Below, in pieces: positions 1-19,816 of a stretch of 36,940 nt of DNA. Position numbers and translations under genes: made by a program. Where the stretch lies: positions 1 through 36,940 of the forward strand of contig CAMBPV010000020.1 in assembly GCA_945869695.1 (NCBI GenBank). The letters are read 5' to 3'. Position 1 is the stretch's first letter. Each line of letters opens with the position of its first letter. The DNA comes from Prosthecobacter debontii. GTDB taxonomy: Bacteria > Verrucomicrobiota > Verrucomicrobiia > Verrucomicrobiales > Verrucomicrobiaceae. Below the pieces are notes generated by a model, which did not search any database, was not told the origin of the DNA, and was given only the letters and a program-made list of their open reading frames with translations.

Positions 1-12
1 TATTACAAGCCT

Positions 13-529
13 GTGCACCTCGTCATCTCTTTCGCGCCCCTCCTCCGGATTCCGATTCTCGCCGTTTCAGCCTTGGTTCTGCTGGGCTGTGACTCACCCA
101 CCATGCGCAGAGGCGATGTTTCCACACGTCTCGAGACCCTCTCGGATGCCCTGGACGTGGATCCCGTGGAAAAAGCGCTGTCGGGTCGGACATGTCAGCC
201 GCGACATCGGCATCAAGATAACCCGGAAGTCCCTCACCCTCACGACACACGTCATCGACCCATCGGTCGATGAGGCCCGCCAATACGTTTTGGAAAGCCT
301 GCTGTCACGCCTCCGGATTGAGCGCTTCGGTTTTGTGCGTGCGTCGGAACCCGCTCCGGTTGGGAAGCCCCGTTTTAATCTCTGTGATGACCCCTACATC
401 ACCGATGGTCTGCGTCTCGTCGCGCTCATTTCCTCCCAGCCCATCCCCTCGGAAAACGTTCAGAACCTCGGCTGGGAGCACACCCAGATGGACATCATTG
501 AGTTTGGACAGCGCCCCCGACTCGATTGA
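13..529 (+). pseudogene. lipoprotein gene interrupted by a frameshift
   Basis: A GTG-started frame opens with a hydrophobic stretch ending in a lipobox (LVLLGC, Cys at residue 26), so the product would be an exported lipid-anchored protein. That frame reads protein-like to about base 185 and then becomes Arg/His-rich nonsense. From about base 185 the next frame over reads convincingly (for example RDIGIKITRKSLTLTTHVID and DEARQYVLESLLSRLRIERF) to the stop at 527-529. Joining them needs one base removed, most simply in the G-rich stretch near 180-190. The restored protein would be about 170 residues. I do not recognise a family. The frame is open to the window edge, so the true start could lie upstream. 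A sequencing error, a real pseudogene or a translational shift are all possible; no classic slippery site is seen. Confidence 0.6.
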
Positions 530-9507: not shown

Positions 9508-12294
9508 ATGACCGAGCGGGAATATCAGCGCCACCTCAAGGCCATCGCAGGTAAGTTTTTCGAGGAGAAAACCCCTCTACCCAGAGGTCGCACGGAGACT
9601 CTGAAGGCCGCCAAGCGCTTCCTAAAGATCAAGGAGCAGCGCATCAAACAAAGGCACCGCGCAGGACTGGATGGCGCGGAGGTGTGTCGGATGCGCTCAG
9701 ACGTGATCGACTTCATCGCACGCATCCTCTGGGAAGAATGTGTGGCAACGCTGGATCCTGGTGTGCGCTCAAAGTTAAAGGTAAGTGTCGTGGCTCATGG
9801 GGGCTATGGCCGACGGGTTATGAGTCCTGGAAGTGACGTGGATCTCACGTTCATGCTGCCGGGAAACAACTCGAATGTTTCCCCAGAGGTGGCCAAGCTG
9901 ATCAGCAGCTTCCTGCTCTACTTTTGGGATTTGAAGTTCAAGGTCGGGCAGGCAACTCGAAGTGTGGGCGACTGCATCGGCCTCGCTAATGAGGACATGC
10001 AGACGAAGACGGCACTCATGGAGGCCAGATTTTTATGTGGGAGTGAAACAGCCTTCAAGGAATTCCGCTCCCGCTTTGACAAAGAGTGCATGGATGGTCG
10101 CGAGGTTGAATTTCTGCGACTCCGTCAGGAGGACCTCAGCAGCCGACACTCGAAGTATGGCTCCACTCCCTTCGTTCAGGAGCCCAATGTCAAAACGGGT
10201 TGCGGCGGACTGCGTGACTACCAGAACCTGATCTGGATGACCTATGCCAAGCTGCGGACGCTCAACCCAAAAGATCTTGTCGAACGAGGCTTCATCTCCA
10301 AGTCCGGGTGGAAGGAGATCGAAAAAGGATACGGGTTCATTCTCCGAGTGCGCAATGAAATGCACTACACGGAACGGCGCGCAAGTGATGTCCTGACACT
10401 CCGCCTGCAGGGCTTGGTAGCCGCAAACTTGAACTACCGGCAAAAGGGCATCCTGCGCCGGATTGAAGCATTCATGCGGGAGTATTACACGACCACCCGC
10501 GATATCCTTCAAAGGAGCAGCGAGGTGATGGACCGATTCCATCTTCAATCCATACCCAAAGACGCTCCCCAGAAAGGCCTTCTTGGCTTTCTGGCGCGGC
10601 GGAAGGCGGCATCGAACCGACCCGAGAAGTTTGATTCGTTCATCAGCAAGAACGAGCGCATTTTCCCAGAAAAGGCGAACATCTTCAAAGAGGATCCGGT
10701 GAGGTTGATGAGATTGTTTCAGCACACTCAGCAGCGGCACCTGAGGCTGAGTCCAGAGCTCTTTCAACTGGTGCAGGAAAGCTTTCGGCTGATCAATGTC
10801 AGCTACCGCTACAACAAGAGTGTGAGGGAGCACTTCATGGCCATCCTTTCACGTAAAGGAGAGGTGGCTCGTGTGCTGCGCCAGATGCACCGGGTGGGAT
10901 TCCTCGGACGTTACCTGCCTGAGTTCGGTGCACTGACCTGCCTGGTGCAGCATGAGTTTTTTCATCGATACACGGCGGATGAGCACACCTTGCGCACGTT
11001 GGATCGGCTGGATGAACTGAGTGGTCCGGCTCAGCCTAATGTATCACTCTATCAGCATTTGTTTCATGAGCTGCAGGAGCCAGCCATTCTCTATCTGGCG
11101 CTCGTCATGCATGACACCGGTCGCGCCGCCAATGCGAAAGCGCACGATGACGAAAGCACGCTGCTGACCGACGCCGTTTGCCGGCGCTTTCAAATCAAAG
11201 GCGAGCGTCGGAGGCTGCTTCTTTTTCTGGTGGATAATCACCTTTTGATGTACCGGACCGCGACGACATCCAATTTGGATGACAGCACGGTGATCGAGGA
11301 GTTTGTGCAAATCGTGCGCAACAAGGAAAATCTGGATACCTTGTTGCTCCTCACCTATGCGGACTCCAAAGGCACGAGTGAGGCCAGTTGGTCCGGCTAC
11401 AAGGAGGCGTCCATCCGCCAATTGTATTCAAACGCACTTCAACTCATGAATGCGCCCGCCGATTTCATGCGCCGCGTGAGCGTGCCTCTGGATGTCGTGA
11501 AGGCAGAGGTGCTGAAGAAGGTGGGAGCTGGTTTTGAAGCGGAGGTGGATGCGCATTTCCTGCACATGCCGCGGAGTTATTTTAACTTTAGGGAATCTGC
11601 CATCATCGTGGGTCACGTGCGGCAGTTTCATCAGTTTTTCCAACAGGTTGTCTCCGAGGAAACAGAGGCTTCAATCTTGCCACTGATGGTCTGGACCGAT
11701 CACGTGGAGCAAGGATACAGTGAACTGACCGTGACGGGGTGGGATCGCCACCTTCTGCTGGCCCGTATTTCGGGTGCCCTCGCGGCGGAGAGCATTAACA
11801 TTTTAAGCGCGGATCTCTATCAGCGCAGTGACCATCTCGTTCTCGATATCTTCCGGGTCTGTAACACCAACTTTAGCCACGTCACCAGCAAGACAGCCAA
11901 ACAAAGAGTGGAGACTTCGGTCCGTAAGGCTTTCGACTCTCCCGACTTCGACTTCGCGTCGATCATTGCCGCTAAATCCAAGCCGCTTCCTGGTTATGAG
12001 GAGGTCGTTGCTGAGATTCCACAGCGAGTGAAGATCAACAATGAGTTGGCCGCAGATCAGACGGTGATCGAACTCCAGATGGTGGACCGAATCGGCCTGC
12101 TTCACGACATTTTCCTGGTGATCGGTCAGTTAGGGCTGAACTCGACTCACGCACGCATCAACACCGAAAAAGGAGTCGCCATCGACTCCATCTACGTGCA
12201 GGACAGTCTGGGTCTCAAAGTGACGGATCCCGAAAAACTCACGAAACTGAAACAGGGCCTGGACACTCTCGTGTTTGGTGCAAGGACGACTTAA
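9508..12294 (+). CDS. glnD: bifunctional [protein-PII] uridylyltransferase
   Basis: Senses glutamine and adds or removes UMP from PII proteins, controlling nitrogen assimilation. The 928-residue product has the full family order. A nucleotidyltransferase domain with GGYGRRVMSPGSDVDLTFML lies near residues 97-116, and a helical linker with EPNVKTGCGGLRDYQN near 229-244. An HD hydrolase domain follows with LALVMHDTGRAANAKAHD near 528-545 and a later DNHLLM. Two C-terminal ACT domains lie at about 735-800 (VTGWDRHLLLARISGALAAE) and 852-925 (VDRIGLLHDIFLVIGQLGLN). The nucleotidyltransferase Asp pair and the HD pair are intact, so both activities are expected. No glnB or glnA is in the window. It follows apt after 3 bases, an uncommon pairing. 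Confidence 0.95.
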   Translation: MTEREYQRHLKAIAGKFFEEKTPLPRGRTETLKAAKRFLKIKEQRIKQRHRAGLDGAEVCRMRSDVIDFIARILWEECVATLDPGVRSKLKVSVVAHGGYGRRVMSPGSDVDLTFMLPGNNSNVSPEVAKLISSFLLYFWDLKFKVGQATRSVGDCIGLANEDMQTKTALMEARFLCGSETAFKEFRSRFDKECMDGREVEFLRLRQEDLSSRHSKYGSTPFVQEPNVKTGCGGLRDYQNLIWMTYAKLRTLNPKDLVERGFISKSGWKEIEKGYGFILRVRNEMHYTERRASDVLTLRLQGLVAANLNYRQKGILRRIEAFMREYYTTTRDILQRSSEVMDRFHLQSIPKDAPQKGLLGFLARRKAASNRPEKFDSFISKNERIFPEKANIFKEDPVRLMRLFQHTQQRHLRLSPELFQLVQESFRLINVSYRYNKSVREHFMAILSRKGEVARVLRQMHRVGFLGRYLPEFGALTCLVQHEFFHRYTADEHTLRTLDRLDELSGPAQPNVSLYQHLFHELQEPAILYLALVMHDTGRAANAKAHDDESTLLTDAVCRRFQIKGERRRLLLFLVDNHLLMYRTATTSNLDDSTVIEEFVQIVRNKENLDTLLLLTYADSKGTSEASWSGYKEASIRQLYSNALQLMNAPADFMRRVSVPLDVVKAEVLKKVGAGFEAEVDAHFLHMPRSYFNFRESAIIVGHVRQFHQFFQQVVSEETEASILPLMVWTDHVEQGYSELTVTGWDRHLLLARISGALAAESINILSADLYQRSDHLVLDIFRVCNTNFSHVTSKTAKQRVETSVRKAFDSPDFDFASIIAAKSKPLPGYEEVVAEIPQRVKINNELAADQTVIELQMVDRIGLLHDIFLVIGQLGLNSTHARINTEKGVAIDSIYVQDSLGLKVTDPEKLTKLKQGLDTLVFGARTT

Positions 12295-12476
12295 AGGAAG
12301 GGCTGCTTCTCGATCTACGGGACCCTTGACTTGACGCTTGAAATCGAAGGATGATCGGCACACAACCTGCATCTCCCGATGGACCTGAGGTTGCAGTTCA
12401 TCCCGACATGGCTACCCTCCCACTCGCGGTGGCCGTGAGGTCGACGCAACCCACAATCCTCCTTAAACCCGACCCG

Positions 12477-14018
12477 ATGCCGGAACTCGAAAACCCTTTT
12501 CAAGATACACTCATTCAACACCATCGCGCCGAGCCTTGCACGCTCGTCATTTTTGGTGCTACGGGTGACTTAACCCACCGCAAGCTCATTCCCGCTCTCT
12601 ACAACATCGCGGTGGGTGGAGACTTGCCTCCGCAGTTCAAGGTTGTTGGCTTTGCGCGTCGCGATAAATCTGATGATGTCTTCCGCGAGGAACTGCGGGT
12701 GGCCAATGCCAAACACTCGCGTCAGGGCCACAGCGAAGAACTTTGGGAAAGCTTCTCGAAGTCCATACACTACCACCGGAGTGAGTTTGAAGACACCGAA
12801 GGCTATCAGGCTCTCGGAAAACTTCTGGATGATTTTGACGAAGAGCGCGGAACGGTGGCAAATCGCCTTTTCTACCTAGCCTCGGCTCCCGAGTATTTCG
12901 ATCAAATCATGCAGCAGATCCGGGCGGCCGGGTTAAACGAAGGAGTCGGAGGCCGCTGGTCTCGAGTGGTGTGCGAGAAACCCTTCGGCAAGGACCTGAA
13001 GACGGCCCGCCGTTTGAATCAGGTGGTGAATGAGACCTTTGATGAAAAGGACACTTACCGCATTGATCACTACCTCGGAAAAGAGACTGCGCAGAACATC
13101 ATGGTGCTGCGTTTTGCCAACTCACTTTTTGAGCCCAATTGGAACAGTCGATACATCGATCACGTGCAGATCACCTGCGCGGAAAATCTGGGCATGGAAG
13201 GCGGACGCGGAGGTTATTATGACACGGCGGGCGCCTTGCGTGACATGGTGCAGAATCACCTCTTTCAGTTGCTCACTCTGGTGGCAATGGAACCCCCGAC
13301 CGATCTGAGTGCCGACTCGGTCCGCGACGAAAAAGTGAAGGTGATCCGCGCCCTGCGTCCGCTGATTGGGCCGGAGGCAGTGGGTAAAAATGTGATCCGT
13401 GCGCAATACACCCCGGGCTCAGTGGACGGTGTGAACCGGGTGGGCTATCGGCAAGAGGATCGGGTGAATCCTGAATCCAAAACCGAGTGCTACGTGGCGC
13501 TGCGTCTCTACATTGACACTTGGCGCTGGCAGGGAGTTCCCTTCTACATTCGGGTGGGGAAACAATTGCCCAAGAAGGCCACGGAGATCAGCATTCATTT
13601 CAAAAAGCCGCCGCAGGTTCCTTTTGCCACGAGCAAGATGATTGCGGACAGCGAGAACACGCTGATTCTTCGAATCCAACCCGACGAAGGCATCTCCCTT
13701 CGCATTCTGTCCAAACAACCAGGACAGGCCCTTTTCGTGCAGCCTGTGAAGATGGATTTTCACTACAGCAATTCCTTTGGCAAGGCCAGCCCGGAAGCTT
13801 ACGAGCGTCTTTTGCTCGATGCGATGGCGGGTGATGCCACCTTGTTTGCCCGGAGAGATGAGGTGGAGAATGCGTGGCGCTTTATCGATGAGCTCGAAAA
13901 AGCGTGGCATGAGTCGAGCACCCCGCCTCCGATGTGTGAGTATCCTGCGGGATCGTGGGGCCCGAAGGAAGCCGACGAATTGCTTCAGGCCGATGGCCGC
14001 GAATGGCGCCGACTCTAA
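12477..14018 (+). CDS. zwf: glucose-6-phosphate 1-dehydrogenase
   Basis: Oxidises glucose-6-phosphate to 6-phosphogluconolactone and makes NADPH, entering the oxidative pentose phosphate pathway. The start at 12477 (MPELENPFQDTLIQ) gives 513 residues, the usual length. The frame is open back to 12351, but those 42 residues are not family-like. Seen are the Rossmann motif LVIFGATGDLTHRKLIPALY near residues 23-42, CEKPFGKDL near 165, the active-site signature RIDHYLGKETAQN near 195, and YIRVGKQLPKK near 358. opcA starts 19 bases downstream. No Shine-Dalgarno is clear before the chosen start. Confidence 0.94.
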   Translation: MPELENPFQDTLIQHHRAEPCTLVIFGATGDLTHRKLIPALYNIAVGGDLPPQFKVVGFARRDKSDDVFREELRVANAKHSRQGHSEELWESFSKSIHYHRSEFEDTEGYQALGKLLDDFDEERGTVANRLFYLASAPEYFDQIMQQIRAAGLNEGVGGRWSRVVCEKPFGKDLKTARRLNQVVNETFDEKDTYRIDHYLGKETAQNIMVLRFANSLFEPNWNSRYIDHVQITCAENLGMEGGRGGYYDTAGALRDMVQNHLFQLLTLVAMEPPTDLSADSVRDEKVKVIRALRPLIGPEAVGKNVIRAQYTPGSVDGVNRVGYRQEDRVNPESKTECYVALRLYIDTWRWQGVPFYIRVGKQLPKKATEISIHFKKPPQVPFATSKMIADSENTLILRIQPDEGISLRILSKQPGQALFVQPVKMDFHYSNSFGKASPEAYERLLLDAMAGDATLFARRDEVENAWRFIDELEKAWHESSTPPPMCEYPAGSWGPKEADELLQADGREWRRL

Positions 14019-14037
14019 CCCGCCGAAGCCAGTATCC

Positions 14038-15102
14038 ATGAGCGACACCCTTCATGAAAACGACCTTTCTATCCTCGGTCAAGAGGTGCCACTTGGTCGA
14101 GTGGATCGGGAGCTGAAAAAGCTCTGGGATACCGATGATGCAAAGACGCGAGCCTCGCTGATGAACTTTGCCATTTATAGCGAGAAAGCTGAGGACCTAG
14201 CTCGGAACAATCGACTCCTGGAGCAAATCACCTCGACACACGCCTGTCGGGCTCTCTTGATTCTAACCCTTCCCGGCGGGGATCCGCCGAGGGCACGGGC
14301 TTGGATCAATGCCCTGTGCCGTCCCTATCAAGGGAAGGAAGTCGTGTGCAGTGAGCAGCTTTCTTTTGTCCTCGAGGGCGGAAACGCAGCCCAAGTGCAG
14401 AACACCGTGTTCGCCCATCTCGATTCGGATCTTCCCCTAGCCGTGTGGTGGCAGGGAGATCTCACCTCGAATTTCGAGGAGCGCTTTTATTCGGAGATCA
14501 ATCGACTCTTCATTGACAGCAGCGCGTGGAAAGACCCGGCCACGGCATTTGCAAAACTGGAGACGGCCTACGGAGCACCGACGTCCGACTTTGAGGTTCA
14601 TGACTTGAGTTGGACCCGGTCTCACTACATCCGATCCGCGCTGGCGGGCTGCTTTCAAAGCACCCTGGCACTCAGCCGACTGCCCGACGTCGAGAGGATC
14701 GAGATCACCCATGCTCCGGGTCAGCGGACCTCCGCGCTCCTGGTAGCCGCCTGGATCGCCGAGCGTTTGGCCTATGCTTTAATCGATGCGGAATCGGGAG
14801 TTCGTTTTGCCAAACCGACCGGAGAAACGGTGACGCTCGATCTTCATGAGGGCCCCTCGGGTTACTGCATCCAAAGGCTGGCTTTAGTCGGCCCGGGGAT
14901 GAAGACGGAGGTCAAGCGAGACCCCTCTTGCTCGTTCGTGCGTGTTTGCGCCCACTGTGGGGAACACGAGTCATCCGAAATGTTGCCAGCCGATGCAGAG
15001 ACGGAATCTGAACTCATCTCAGGTCAGCTGAGTCGGGCTCATGGAACGAGTCTCTACATCGAAATGGTGCCTTTGCTCCGAGAAATGCTCGCAAAGCTCT
15101 GA
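14038..15102 (+). CDS. opcA: glucose-6-phosphate dehydrogenase assembly protein OpcA-like
   Basis: The 354-residue product from the ATG at 14038 (MSDTLHENDLSILGQ) resembles OpcA, the protein that assembles or activates G6PDH and is normally encoded beside zwf. Supporting features are its position 19 bases after zwf, the central LPLAVWWQGDLT near residue 138, a preceding ACRALLILTLP segment near residue 75, and a C-terminal CAHCGEHES pair of cysteines near residue 304. OpcA is best known in cyanobacteria and actinobacteria. The long frame running upstream inside zwf is an overlap artefact; the short start is preferred because it follows the zwf stop. Confidence 0.88.
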   Translation: MSDTLHENDLSILGQEVPLGRVDRELKKLWDTDDAKTRASLMNFAIYSEKAEDLARNNRLLEQITSTHACRALLILTLPGGDPPRARAWINALCRPYQGKEVVCSEQLSFVLEGGNAAQVQNTVFAHLDSDLPLAVWWQGDLTSNFEERFYSEINRLFIDSSAWKDPATAFAKLETAYGAPTSDFEVHDLSWTRSHYIRSALAGCFQSTLALSRLPDVERIEITHAPGQRTSALLVAAWIAERLAYALIDAESGVRFAKPTGETVTLDLHEGPSGYCIQRLALVGPGMKTEVKRDPSCSFVRVCAHCGEHESSEMLPADAETESELISGQLSRAHGTSLYIEMVPLLREMLAKL

Positions 15103-15149: not shown

Positions 15150-17330
15150 ATGATTGGCTTGCGCCTACTCATTTTTGGAATCCCCTTTGCCGCCCTCAGT
15201 CTCACCTGGTGGTCGGTGCAGCAATCCCATGCCAGTCGAGTGACACGAACCGGTGAGATCACCGCCATGTTACCCGGGGAACCACCCCGATTGCATCCCT
15301 ACTTGCCTGCGACCGAGGTGGACCGCCAGATCATTGACCTAATCCATGAGCCGCTCATTCGTATTGGTGCTGATGGAAAGTTAAAGCCCGCACTGGCTGA
15401 GAGGTGGGAGTGGAGTCAGACCATCACGTCTTGGTTTCTCACTCCGGAGGTCGCGAAGAAAGCGACCGCCCACCTCAAGGGCATCAGCGCCGATAGCTGG
15501 ATCGATTGGAATTTGGAATCCGCGAAACAGGAGGGGAATGCCGTGGTGATGCAATTCTCCAAGATGTCGGGCGCAGGCCCCCATAAAGTCTTGGACCAAC
15601 TGGGTGCCTTTGATCCTTTGCCCGCCGAATTGATCCGCATTGAAGTCAACGAAACCGCGCGTCCTTACCAGGAGCATTTCATGGCCAATGCCGTGGAGCC
15701 GGGCCAAATCAAGCGGGTCTGGTATGACGGTTCAAATGCGATTGAAATTGTGGCGGCAGGAAATGTATCGAAATTCTTCGAAGAGCTGACCAACTACTAC
15801 CAATCGAAATCGAGCCTCAATCCCCGGATCGAACGGAAGGATAAAATCTACGGACTGCGGGAGCCACAACTCGAGATCATCCTTCGTGAAGGAGTCAAAT
15901 GGCACGATGACACTCCATTTACGGCAGAAGATGTCCGCGCCACCTATACCTACATCACTTCTAAAAAGTGGGCCGCGCCAAACATGGAGGCGCTCCGCCA
16001 GATCCAGGCAGTCGAGGTCTTTGGCCCCTCACGAATCAAAGTGCTGTATCGAAAGATTTTTGGTCCCTCGATTTGTAGTTGGGTGAATCTTCCCATTCTC
16101 CCAGCCGCTTGGCTCAAGGCCCACGCGACCGACGCTGCCGATGCTGAAGGGCACGTCTTCTCCAAAAACGCACCTCCTGGATGCGGCGTCTTCTCCATCA
16201 CTCATCGAGACATGAGATCCCTCGCACTCGCGCCGACTCCCTCAGCTTGGGCTAACTTTCACATCCGCCGACTCACCTTTATCAGTGGTGTTTCGGCCTT
16301 TCAGAGCCGCTTGGGCTATGCCACTGGCTCCGCTGATCTTTTTTGGCCGGAGAACGAGGACGTCTCCGGCCTCGTCAAACAAGAAGGCTTGGCGATTCGT
16401 GGAATGCCTCCGAGGAGCCGATTGGTCGTGCTTTGGAACACGCGTTCTGACTTGCTTTCAGACGTGAGCACCCGCAAGGCGCTCGCCTTGGCAACTGATC
16501 GGGAGGAACTCATCAACACCTTGATGTCGGGTCGAGGACGAGTTCACGAAGGCTTATTTCAACCAGGGTTGTGGTTTGCCAAGAAAACCACCCCAATTCG
16601 TCCAAATCGGGAGGAGTCAGTCAAGGCTCTGGCCAATGCGGGTTGGTTAAAGAATGTCGAGGGAATCGCCACCCGCCCCGGACAAACGCTAAAGTTCGAG
16701 CTGCTCACGACCACGGGGAATCCGCAGCAACAGCGATTGGCGGAGGCCCTGGCAGAGCAGTGGAGGAAGATCGGAGTTCATGTTAATATCACGACCCTTC
16801 CATGGGATGAGATGGTGGGCACTCGACTTTCTCAGAGGCGGTTTGATGCCGCCATCATTGGACTCGAGTTTGAAACGACTTGGGATCAACTCCCATTCTG
16901 GCACTCAAGCCAGGCTGGGCCCGGTGGGCTTAATTTTTGTGGGGTGCAGGACAGACAAATCGACCTTTTGCTCGAAGGACTGCATGAAGAGTTTGATCCG
17001 GATCAGGTTGAGATCAAAGCTGCGGAGTTGGATGCGAGCCTGAGTTCATTGCAGGCCATGCTTCCCCTGTTTACGGACATGTCTCAGGTGGCAGTTCGGC
17101 AGTCGGTTTTGCAAAATAACTCCGACCCCGATGACCCTCGTCCGTGGACGCTCCGGGATCTTGTGTTCAATAAGCCCAGCTCTAACACGCCCAGAGTGGA
17201 TCTGGAAATGATCATCCCCGCGCTACCTTCTGCCAAGCCCGCGCCATCTCCGAGCACCGCGCCGCTTCCCATCCCCACCCCAATACCCAATCTACCGCTG
17301 CCTCCCTCAGTGACGCCTCCGATCCAATGA
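15150..17330 (+). CDS. peptide-type ABC transporter substrate-binding protein (SBP_bac_5), enlarged
   Basis: A 726-residue extracytoplasmic binding protein with an N-terminal membrane/signal segment (residues 5-22). The family pattern starts with PPRLHPYLPATEVDRQIIDL and IHEPLIRIGADGKLKPALAE (residues 46-86). It is then interrupted by roughly 150 residues of different sequence (about 90-240, including DLTNYYQ-like linker sequence). It resumes with ILREGVKWHDDTPFTAEDVR near 243-262, normally adjacent to the first block. Later blocks are present: RLVVLWNTRSDLLSDVSTRK, ALALATDREELINTLMSGRG and RLAEALAEQWRKIGVHVNI. The last 35 residues are a Pro-rich tail. Usual family length is 500-600. It heads an operon with a fused permease and an ATPase, overlapping the permease by ATGA. 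Confidence 0.88.
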   Translation: MIGLRLLIFGIPFAALSLTWWSVQQSHASRVTRTGEITAMLPGEPPRLHPYLPATEVDRQIIDLIHEPLIRIGADGKLKPALAERWEWSQTITSWFLTPEVAKKATAHLKGISADSWIDWNLESAKQEGNAVVMQFSKMSGAGPHKVLDQLGAFDPLPAELIRIEVNETARPYQEHFMANAVEPGQIKRVWYDGSNAIEIVAAGNVSKFFEELTNYYQSKSSLNPRIERKDKIYGLREPQLEIILREGVKWHDDTPFTAEDVRATYTYITSKKWAAPNMEALRQIQAVEVFGPSRIKVLYRKIFGPSICSWVNLPILPAAWLKAHATDAADAEGHVFSKNAPPGCGVFSITHRDMRSLALAPTPSAWANFHIRRLTFISGVSAFQSRLGYATGSADLFWPENEDVSGLVKQEGLAIRGMPPRSRLVVLWNTRSDLLSDVSTRKALALATDREELINTLMSGRGRVHEGLFQPGLWFAKKTTPIRPNREESVKALANAGWLKNVEGIATRPGQTLKFELLTTTGNPQQQRLAEALAEQWRKIGVHVNITTLPWDEMVGTRLSQRRFDAAIIGLEFETTWDQLPFWHSSQAGPGGLNFCGVQDRQIDLLLEGLHEEFDPDQVEIKAAELDASLSSLQAMLPLFTDMSQVAVRQSVLQNNSDPDDPRPWTLRDLVFNKPSSNTPRVDLEMIIPALPSAKPAPSPSTAPLPIPTPIPNLPLPPSVTPPIQ

Positions 17331-18934
17331 TGGAAATCAGTCAAGATCCCCCACGCTTGCTGGCACTGCGACTGATTGCGATCAGCGCGGTCGTTGCCTG
17401 CTCACTTCTGGCATGGCAGGGCGTTCCATCTGGCGAGTGGATCCGCCTTCTCGTCGGTTTGACTCCAACAAGTTCAGGAGGAACCACTCTCGCAAATGCG
17501 CTGTTTGAGCGTTGCACATTGACCTTGGGCCTCGTCGTTGGTGCGGCATGTTTATCTCAGGCAATGAGTCTCGCGGTTTGCCTCATCTCGTTTCAACTGG
17601 GCTTCAGATCGGCGTCAGTGGCTCGATTCATCGCTCGCTTTGTTGCTCTGACCCCGATTTCGGCCATCAGTTGGCTGGCTGTAGGATGGATCGTCGGCAT
17701 GCAGGGACTGCCGGTTGAGTCTCTGACCCCACATCATCCCGTGCCAGGTCAGGACACGGCTGCTCTTGGCATGGGTCGTGTTTTCTGGTGGTGGCTTCTT
17801 CCCATCTGGATCCTGGCGCTGCCGATGACGGGAGAACTGGTGGCCGAGATCGTCCCCTCTTTTTTCCAAGCCAAAGAGCGTGAACTCGCGATGGGTTTGC
17901 GGGCTCGTGGAATTGGAGCCTCAGCGATTCGCTATCGGCATTGGCTTCCTCTGGTGTGGCCTACGATCACTCGTCTTCTTTTGTCCCGTGGATTGCTTCT
18001 TTTTGGCTACGTCATTTTCGTGGAGGAGGCGCTTGGCATACCCGGATGGGGATCGTTTTTCGCCCATTCCATCCAGAGTGGAGCGATCCAAAACATTGCA
18101 GGCGCGGTTTATGCGGCGGGCTGGATGACTGCAGCATGGTGCGTTTGCGTGAGTGTTTTCAAAAGACTCACCTTCCAGACTCCTTCGATCAGGTTCCACA
18201 AAGCTGCACGACCCGAGTTATCCACGCCGAGAGGGTTTGTCACGAGCGCGGCCTGCGTCGTTTTGTTCCTGGGTGCCGCGTTCAGGGGTGGAGAGACCAG
18301 TTCGCTACTATCGGCATTGATTTCCCCCTTGGTACACGACCTCGGAGTTGTATCCGCCACTTCGCTCTTGGCCTTACTCGTTGCCTTCACGTCGGGGAAC
18401 ATCCTTGCCTTTTTGAACGTGAAGCGCATCGGATTTCCGAAAACCAAACTGATGATTACCCTGAGTTGGTCTCCTATACTAATCTATCTCATCGGTATCT
18501 CCGCTTTTCTCAGATTAAGCGATACGGTATGGGTTGCCGTTGGGATCGGAGTCGGCCTTTCAGGAGCTCAATATCTTTACAATCGCTGGTCGGAACTCGT
18601 TTCGAAGCCTCATGTTGAAGCAGCGTATGCACTTGGCTCCAGCAAGCTGAACGCATGGAAACTTCACGTCATGCCTGACATGATTTTCGTCACTCTCTCC
18701 TGGACATTAAAAGCATTTTCGACGCTCCTCCTCTGGCTCGTTTTGATTGACGGCATCATGCCTTCAAAATCAACGGAATCACCTCCGACCCTTGGCTCTG
18801 CCATTTGGCGCGCCAAAGATAACGTCCTTGCGGATCCTATGCCCTTGCTGGTGGCAGGATTCCTCGTGGGGATCTTGGCCTTGTTTTTTGCTCAGCTGAG
18901 CCGCATCGTCCACCCAACCACCACGCCTCACTAA
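17327..18934 (+). CDS. peptide-type ABC transporter permease, apparent DppB-DppC fusion
   Basis: A 535-residue membrane protein with two BPD_transp_1-like halves. The first half has its coupling-helix loop at ERELAMGLRARGIGASAIRY (about 184-203), followed by a DppB-like VEEALGIPGWGSFFAHSIQS. The second half has SKPHVEAAYALGSSKLNAWK (about 426-445), followed by VMPDMIFVTLSWTLKAFS. Each loop is preceded and followed by groups of membrane helices. Normal peptide importers use two separate permeases of about 300 residues each. This single chain is shorter than their sum and lacks an obvious DppC N-terminal tail. It overlaps the binding-protein stop by four bases and ends 3 bases before the ATPase gene. 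Confidence 0.85.
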   Translation: MMEISQDPPRLLALRLIAISAVVACSLLAWQGVPSGEWIRLLVGLTPTSSGGTTLANALFERCTLTLGLVVGAACLSQAMSLAVCLISFQLGFRSASVARFIARFVALTPISAISWLAVGWIVGMQGLPVESLTPHHPVPGQDTAALGMGRVFWWWLLPIWILALPMTGELVAEIVPSFFQAKERELAMGLRARGIGASAIRYRHWLPLVWPTITRLLLSRGLLLFGYVIFVEEALGIPGWGSFFAHSIQSGAIQNIAGAVYAAGWMTAAWCVCVSVFKRLTFQTPSIRFHKAARPELSTPRGFVTSAACVVLFLGAAFRGGETSSLLSALISPLVHDLGVVSATSLLALLVAFTSGNILAFLNVKRIGFPKTKLMITLSWSPILIYLIGISAFLRLSDTVWVAVGIGVGLSGAQYLYNRWSELVSKPHVEAAYALGSSKLNAWKLHVMPDMIFVTLSWTLKAFSTLLLWLVLIDGIMPSKSTESPPTLGSAIWRAKDNVLADPMPLLVAGFLVGILALFFAQLSRIVHPTTTPH

Positions 18935-18937
18935 ATC

Positions 18938-19816
18938 ATGGCCGAGTCCACCCCCGCTTCACCTCCGCCCCTGCTCCGAATCAAAGATCTCTCCATCGAG
19001 TTCCGCCGTCGGGGCGGCGACCCTATGCAAGCAGTGAAAGGCATCAGCCTGGAACTGAATCAGGGTGAGTCACTCGCCATCGTCGGAGAAAGTGGCAGCG
19101 GCAAAAGCGCAACAGCCTTGGCTCTGGCCCGACTTCTTCCCGAGCCACCCGCGCGCATTTCAGCCACCCAGCTTTCGGTGAGCGGACACGACGTGCTCTC
19201 TCTCAATGAGCGCGAGTTGCGCAAAATCCGGGGCAAGGAGATCGCTTACATTTTCCAAGAACCCAGCACCTCCCTAAATCCCGTTTTGACGGTTCGCACG
19301 CAGATGGCGGAGTCCCTGGCGCTTCACAGACCCGAGGTCACCAATCGGGATCAGGAGATCATTCAATGGCTTTACAAAGTGGGCATCGTCGAGCCCGAAA
19401 AGCGTCTCAAGGCTTACCCTCACGAGCTCAGTGGAGGGATGCAACAACGCGTCATGATCGCGATGGCTCTCTGCTGCCAGCCGAGGCTCCTCATCGCGGA
19501 TGAGCCCACCACGGCTCTCGATGTGACCATTCAAAAACAGATCATCGATCTTCTCGCTGAACTCCGCACCAGTCTGAACATGAGCTTGATCCTCATCACG
19601 CACAACTTTGGCATCATCCGCGATGTCGCCGACCGCGTCGCCGTCATGTTCCGTGGTCGCATCGTTGAGACCGGCCCTGTTGAGCAAATCCTCGAAAACC
19701 CCAAGCATCCTTACACCCAAGCTCTGCTCGACTGTGTTCCGCGAATGGGCTCGAAGCTCGAGCGCCTCCGCGCCATTGACTACGACTTGATCGAGAGGAC
19801 AGCGCCCATTATTTGA
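18938..19816 (+). CDS. peptide-type ABC transporter ATP-binding protein (OppD/DppD-like)
   Basis: A 292-residue ATPase that drives the importer from the cytoplasmic face. Motifs are complete: Walker [13 protein letters not shown] near residue 50, Q-loop [17 protein letters not shown] near 105, signature [17 protein letters not shown] near 163, Walker [19 protein letters not shown] near 184, and H-loop [17 protein letters not shown] near 217. It ends shortly after the oligopeptide-importer segment [20 protein letters not shown]. The usual Cys-rich iron-sulfur extension of many DppD proteins is missing, and it is 30 or so residues short. No second ATPase (OppF/DppF) follows, so either it works as a homodimer or a partner is elsewhere. 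Confidence 0.92.

Follow-up and report, generated by a model that had tools for sequence, protein, structure and literature searches.

Binding proteins are commonly viewed as slightly varying versions of one core with two lobes. In the DppABCDF importer, the activity of the translocator is reported to require the binding protein as well as ATP, and a scoop motif of DppB is placed in the region between TM1 and TM2 (PMC12136057). In mycobacteria, a binding protein has been proposed to signal through a kinase to an FHA protein, in the order GlnH-GlnX-PknG-GarA (PMC6069109), and GlnH is assigned to the family-3 binding proteins (PMC9769921). Here, a receptor from Prosthecobacter debontii is described in which a separately folding domain is found inside one lobe. 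The window, the whole stretch of 36,940 nucleotides that was analysed, contains the receptor gene followed by a permease gene and an ATPase gene, and the features of these three genes given below lie on the forward strand.

The receptor is a family-5 (cluster C) binding protein of 726 aa, encoded by the open reading frame at 15150..17330. Its match to Pfam SBP_bac_5 (E 8.6e-46) scores 157.2 bits against a curated cut-off of 32.4, and begins at residue 242, which is profile position 20, so that the matched core downstream of the insert occupies 15873..16895. The predicted model matches AppA, NikA and NikZ and has the cluster C fold, with a Foldseek match to 1xoc (E 1.6e-36) and a TMt of 0.81 to 4oer (NikA). 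It can be observed that the family blocks “LAERWEW” (residues 82-88) and “LREGVKWHDDTPFTAEDV” (residues 245-262), which are usually adjacent, stand apart in this protein. W86 and W251 are 165 residues apart, whereas the corresponding distance in L001 and L002, two family-5 paralogues encoded in this genome, is 19 (counted by eye from the sequences), which leaves approximately 146 additional residues. A third paralogue, L003, is longer and carries an N-terminal extension that automatic alignment placed in the insert columns, and its own hairpin reads short.

Conservation of the extra segment was assessed in relatives. At E 0.001, at least part of the protein was matched in 51 of the 57 genomes searched. 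Of the 30 top-ranking matches retrieved, one was that of the window itself, leaving 29 orthologues for comparison. The insert columns were 97-100% filled in all 29, with 22-59% identity, and the mean column identity reached 47% in the alignment of the insert and 48% in that of the full-length protein. Furthermore, the median insert length was 148-153 residues in three groups. Conservation and the predicted fold described below rule out a chance or mis-called sequence. The insert, residues 89-238 (15414..15863) as bounded by orthologue alignments, predicted structure and paralogue comparison, is thus a real, conserved folded domain of 146 residues. The sequence-only reading had reported about 150 extra residues at 15410-15880, splitting two normally consecutive family blocks, and both its coordinates and this split agree well with the spacing, the paralogues and the orthologues.

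Structure prediction, carried out for the 726-residue protein, as the same reading had proposed, and for the insert alone, returned an insert that folds confidently as nested ferredoxin-like modules. The isolated insert was predicted by AlphaFold2 with a mean pLDDT of 94.2 and a pTM of 0.84; in the prediction of the whole protein from a 30-row alignment the mean pLDDT was 83.6, with residues 89-238 in blocks of 85-96. The order of strands and helices assigned by DSSP to the isolated model is b a a b b a, then b a b b a b, then b, in which the ferredoxin-like beta-alpha-beta-beta-alpha-beta topology appears twice, one copy nested in the other. Module 1 comprises residues 89-154 (15414..15611; 65-73 residues aligned by VIA-align) and is closed by a core strand at residues 236-241 (15855-15872). 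Module 2, nested within it, comprises residues 158-233 (15621..15848). The VIA-align matches formed two corresponding sets, one representing module 1 together with the final strand (model residues 1..70, or 1..155 with approximately 70 residues aligned) and the other representing module 2 (model residues 72..147). In our reading of the model, module 1 would be interrupted by module 2 after its second helix and before its last strand, and the outer strands of module 1 appear to prolong the core hairpin of the N-lobe. Since the hairpin strands continue into the sheet of the insert, the insert should be held rigidly. In terms of OppA, the insert would lie in domain II (Ib).

The best VIA-align Z was 8.2 and no natural protein family stood out; the assignment of a fold family is withheld because values of this size may reflect only a common arrangement. 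The best Foldseek matches were engineered ferredoxin-fold proteins (E 1.1e-5), with TM-scores by query length of 0.36-0.41, low values which we take to mean that the two modules would not superpose together. Comparison of the insert profile with PDB sequences gave no natural match and one designed protein (E 0.089), and comparison with Pfam gave no family in more than one of 19 members (best E 0.037). The segment, called novel from the letters alone, is accordingly new to the libraries searched (Pfam, PDB sequences), as far as profile comparison can tell. In full-text searches of open-licence literature, no paper was recognisable by its title and abstract as describing the domain or a fusion of such a receptor with FHA. 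An internal duplication of the modules found no support in sequence (hhalign probability 0.9%, 9 columns), and derivation of the insert from the core was not supported (hhalign probability 6%; E 0.006 in a single comparison, unconvincing alone).

Both ends of the receptor were also analysed. The N-terminal hydrophobic helix, residues 1-32 (15150..15245), is a probable uncleaved membrane anchor, as indicated by the FHA fusions discussed below and by a single helix at residues 2-32 in the whole-protein model. Lipobox-like strings within the first 60 residues occur in four of 67 rows; those of L045 and L050 fall within the hydrophobic helix, while those of L110 and L153 lie in stretches resembling over-long start choices. 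The Pro-rich tail pointed out earlier at the end of the protein is real, comprising residues 676-726 (17175..17327) with pLDDT < 50. It is disordered and lineage-specific, a clearly Pro-rich tail of such length being present only in the window and L009 among 19 aligned rows.

Insert-bearing proteins, of approximately 640-760 residues with an N-terminal hydrophobic anchor, are found in parts of the class Verrucomicrobiae. With the whole-protein profile, matches at E 1e-60 were obtained in 100 of the 288 genomes searched in the order. At E 0.001, the insert profile matched at least 7 of 387 genomes of the phylum and at least 30 of 384 genomes of the class, in at least 14 of 172 genera, lower bounds in which at most ten candidates were scored per genome; in family f3 it matched 40 of 74 genomes. 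The named loci comprise 33 from Verrucomicrobia, including Prosthecobacter and Verrucomicrobium, and a proteobacterial protein (L068) whose match is confined to residues 245-619. It should be noted that the loci were found with insert-containing queries, for which reason universal presence of the insert among them is no independent evidence, and that a core-only profile, blind to the insert, provides an independent search. This profile gave 35 places at E <=3.5e-50 in 57 genomes, the next best being at 6.5e-26, and all 35 coincide with matches of the insert-bearing queries. Six of the next-best matches, the nearest insert-free family-5 proteins of relatives, were fetched; none matched the insert profile, and a short hairpin was readable in five. 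Judged by these profiles, insert-bearing receptors are a discrete group in the sample with one exception, L106, where the insert is present and the diverged protein was missed by the core profile. The core of L106 reaches only 8e-8 in Pfam, just under the cut-off, its insert matches at 2.3e-26, and its ATPase is 69% identical. With the core near the limit of recognition and the insert still strong, the insert has not diverged along with the ligand lobes.

Gene context was tabulated for 73 loci, and a tree was built from 66 of these and the window (67 in total), L036, L037, L038, L057, L063, L067 and L154 being omitted for a truncated receptor, a contig end or short downstream sequence. In the window, a single permease ORF of 535 aa (17327..18934) contains two DppB/DppC-type transmembrane domains, with a TMD-B-like first half (profile 2.5e-13), a weak TMD-C-like second half (0.0048), and Pfam BPD_transp_1 in two stretches. 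Among the 67 loci, the permease is labelled two-gene in 24, fused in 15 including the window, 435-471 residues in 16, 302-396 residues in 8 and not adjacent in 4. Lineages outside the window's order are among the two-gene loci, of which 22 have separate permease ORFs; in L108 the ORFs overlap in two different frames, and L141 was labelled by hand with only the first permease seen. On this quickly built tree with long branches for L106, L119 and L155, the five labels require six changes, throughout which the insert stays, and the fused label alone requires four, of which at least three are forced by starred branches. Permease fusion thus has more than one origin or has been reversed, and the insert is older than the fusion. 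A special link between the insert and the fused permease, which had been suggested together with a comparison of co-occurrence across cassettes, is ruled out by the 24 of 67 loci in which insert-bearing receptors lie beside two ordinary permease genes, the outcome that the sequence-only reading had itself named as refuting; shortened and distant permeases accompany the insert as well.

Several further features of the permeases were observed. Outside f3, most two-gene loci have a first TM1-TM2 spacing, measured from peak to peak, of 91-94 residues; several fused permeases have 55-60 and shortened ones 34-46, and values in the window's family span 32-60. In L113 (5193-6137), L120 (5868-6773) and L114 (5045-6181), receptor and ATPase are separated by only one permease ORF, of 302-379 residues, which possibly forms a homodimeric translocator. 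In the f15 loci L105, L144, L146 and L148, neither a permease nor a cassette ATPase lies beside the receptor. An orphan receptor without a transporter was rejected for this family, as a permease (77% identity) and an ATPase (73-76%) are encoded elsewhere in three of the four genomes; in G397 the ATPase matches at 74% and the first permease only weakly (34%). The cassettes of L144, L146 and L148 (genomes G690, G744 and G835) are split, with receptor, permease and ATPase on separate contigs. Upstream of the receptor, within 9508-15102 of the window, lie an OpcA-like gene (Pfam OpcA), a large gene that we take to be GlnD-like and a presumed glucose-6-phosphate dehydrogenase (zwf-like) gene, none of which was found by blastp in the fetched loci L035-L068. 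In L107 and L158, a large ORF (1174-1478 residues, with a Pro/Gly/Ser-rich N-terminus) ends 37-80 bases upstream of the receptor gene.

After the permease, one OppD-like ATPase of 292 aa is encoded (18938..19816; Pfam and motif alignment) in place of separate D and F genes, and no second ATPase was found in the cassette among the loci checked; in L139 a second, weaker ATPase ORF lies 3.5 kb downstream. As read from sequence, the catalytic motifs, including the H-loop, are intact in the window and at most loci. In a plain motif scan, the full set of three motifs was found at 47 of 61 loci; the scan used the best-scoring ATPase anywhere in the locus and so missed L155, which adjoins another complete cassette with an intact ATPase, and two of its 14 failures are artefacts (L062, cut at a contig end, and L105, an unrelated ATPase). 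In f3, the LSGG signature is lost in all 13 aligned loci other than L119 (L107, L108, L109, L110, L115, L116, L117, L123, L124, L155, L156, L157 and L158). L110, L156 and L117 also lack the Walker A lysine, and most of the 13 lack the H-loop histidine; L118 displays no recognisable ATPase within the fetched stretch. These degenerate ATPases are not supported as pseudogenes, since dN/dS in the two close pairs tested (approximately 0.16 for L124/L108 and 0.20 for L110/L156) is near the values of their receptors and shows purifying selection. They could conceivably pair, as heterodimers, with an intact ATPase encoded elsewhere.

The insert was then compared between these 13 rows and 53 rows without a degenerate ATPase, namely 35 of f1 including the window, 16 of other families of the class, L106 and L119, with L118 excluded; five of the 53 (L062, L105, L144, L146 and L148) were included with cassette ATPase motifs not directly seen. 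W191 (15720..15722) is kept in 52 of 53 rows and in 6 of 13 with degeneration, E199 (15744..15746) in 53 of 53 and 4 of 13, and Q90 in 50 of 53 and 4 of 13, a trend from which R163 (49/53; 12/13) and G204 (46/53; 13/13) depart. For positions at least 90% conserved elsewhere, the mean fraction kept in the 13 f3 rows is 0.53 in the insert (9 positions), 0.81 in the core (42) and 0.79 in the N part (6), with a Mann-Whitney p of 0.004 for insert against core, the 13 rows all belonging to one family so that positions are not independent of history. The core of the f3 receptors has also diverged. The pattern is suggestive of a weaker conservation of the insert that may be tied, within one clade, to loss of the ATPase signature.

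It is tentatively proposed that the insert serves a membrane-tethered receptor as a module for protein-protein docking or coupling. The insert grew on the tip of the N-lobe hairpin in N-terminally anchored cluster C binding proteins. It would fix the position or orientation of the tethered receptor relative to its translocator, or relative to another copy of the receptor, and would thereby couple the ligand-loaded receptor to the ATPase cycle. This reading is preferred because the fold is autonomous and confident, with a nested ferredoxin-like topology and near-constant length; because the insert is kept with two-gene, fused, shortened or distantly encoded permeases and is independent of the ligand lobes in L106; because its positions are less kept than the core where the ATPase signature is lost; and because the DppABCDF translocator is reported to need its binding protein (PMC12136057). 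Against it, the link with ATPase loss concerns one clade and perhaps one event, with 35 of the 53 comparison rows from the window's own family, and the conserved residues may form only the core of the fold. Moreover, no natural family emerged in the fold search (Z <=8.2), and f3 cores diverged too.

A doubtful alternative is that the insert acts as a sensor, with a second, ACT-like ligand site regulating the receptor or signalling across the membrane. Among the many matches of module 2 are ACT domains from aspartokinase and from acetohydroxyacid synthase small subunits, but the ferredoxin-like fold is very common, the Z of about 7.5 lies close to the background level given for the tool, and the ACT rows stand among unrelated rows, with no Pfam match of the insert. 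In five loci, the receptor forms the C-terminal part of one ORF of 1199-1294 residues that carries an FHA domain and a coiled coil: L040 (6156-10037), L042 (6222-9983), L053 (6387-10031), L061 (6237-10037) and L066 (4892-8488). In L040, the only one scanned, the FHA domain upstream of the receptor matches Pfam at 6.3e-18, and the coiled coil is long. The hydrophobic segment with which other receptors begin lies here between the FHA part and the receptor, an arrangement that, for these fusions at least, speaks for an anchor that is not cleaved and for an N-terminus in the cytoplasm. The mycobacterial GlnH-GlnX-PknG-GarA proposal (PMC6069109) points the same way; however, the fusion is confined to one clade of Verrucomicrobiaceae (5 of 67 rows) and absent from the window, and the known GlnH example is unfused and of family 3 (PMC9769921).

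That the insert is a structural spacer, stabilising the N-lobe or raising the tethered receptor off the membrane, is unlikely: its prolongation of the hairpin strands and constant length fit such a role, but the conservation of W191, E199 and Q90 exceeds the needs of a spacer, though these residues possibly belong to the fold core. It is quite improbable that ABC importers have in the insert a new type of coupling element, with a surface around Q90, W191 and E199 contacting the translocator and kept only where the ATPase is still able to work, and that f3 and FHA-fusion receptors are transmembrane sensors built from transporter parts. Shaping of the ligand cleft to fix a particular ligand class, suggested earlier and compatible with a location in the N-lobe, is very improbable, since the insert lies at the hairpin tip and is retained in L106, the locus with the most diverged core. 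The ligand pocket probably does not include the insert.

The occurrence of this separately folding domain, nearly constant in length, across the class with four permease layouts and with competent and degenerate ATPases constitutes a natural series on how receptor loading is signalled to the translocator, and the FHA fusions would link a receptor of this kind with phospho-signalling in a phylum that has received little study. Compared with known systems, the receptor shares a complete SBP_bac_5 core with AppA of B. subtilis (1xoc, the best PDB sequence match, E 1.2e-27), NikA and NikZ, but differs in the 146-residue insert in its N-lobe hairpin. Insert-bearing receptors also differ from these proteins in having a hydrophobic anchor without a convincing lipobox, and, at approximately 640-760 residues, exceed the approximately 500-600 of most PDB sequence matches. 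The modules individually share the fold of ACT, HMA, AsnC RAM, Pcc1 and designed ferredoxin proteins, whereas no sequence relation to these was found and the modules are nested on a binding-protein hairpin. In the GlnH-GlnX-PknG-GarA/OdhI system of Actinobacteria, an FHA protein of the cytoplasm is likewise proposed to receive its information from a periplasmic binding protein (PMC6069109, PMC9769921); there the proteins are separate and the receptor is of family 3, whereas in the five loci here FHA domain, coiled coil, anchor and family-5 receptor lie in one polypeptide. As in the Opp/Dpp importers, of which E. coli DppABCDF is an example, the cassette comprises a binding protein, DppB/DppC-like transmembrane halves and an OppD-like ATPase; unlike DppABCDF, it has one ATPase gene instead of two, a permease that is two-gene, fused or shortened by lineage, and, in the window's family, a TM1-TM2 spacing of 32-60 residues in the region where the scoop motif of DppB is located (PMC12136057).
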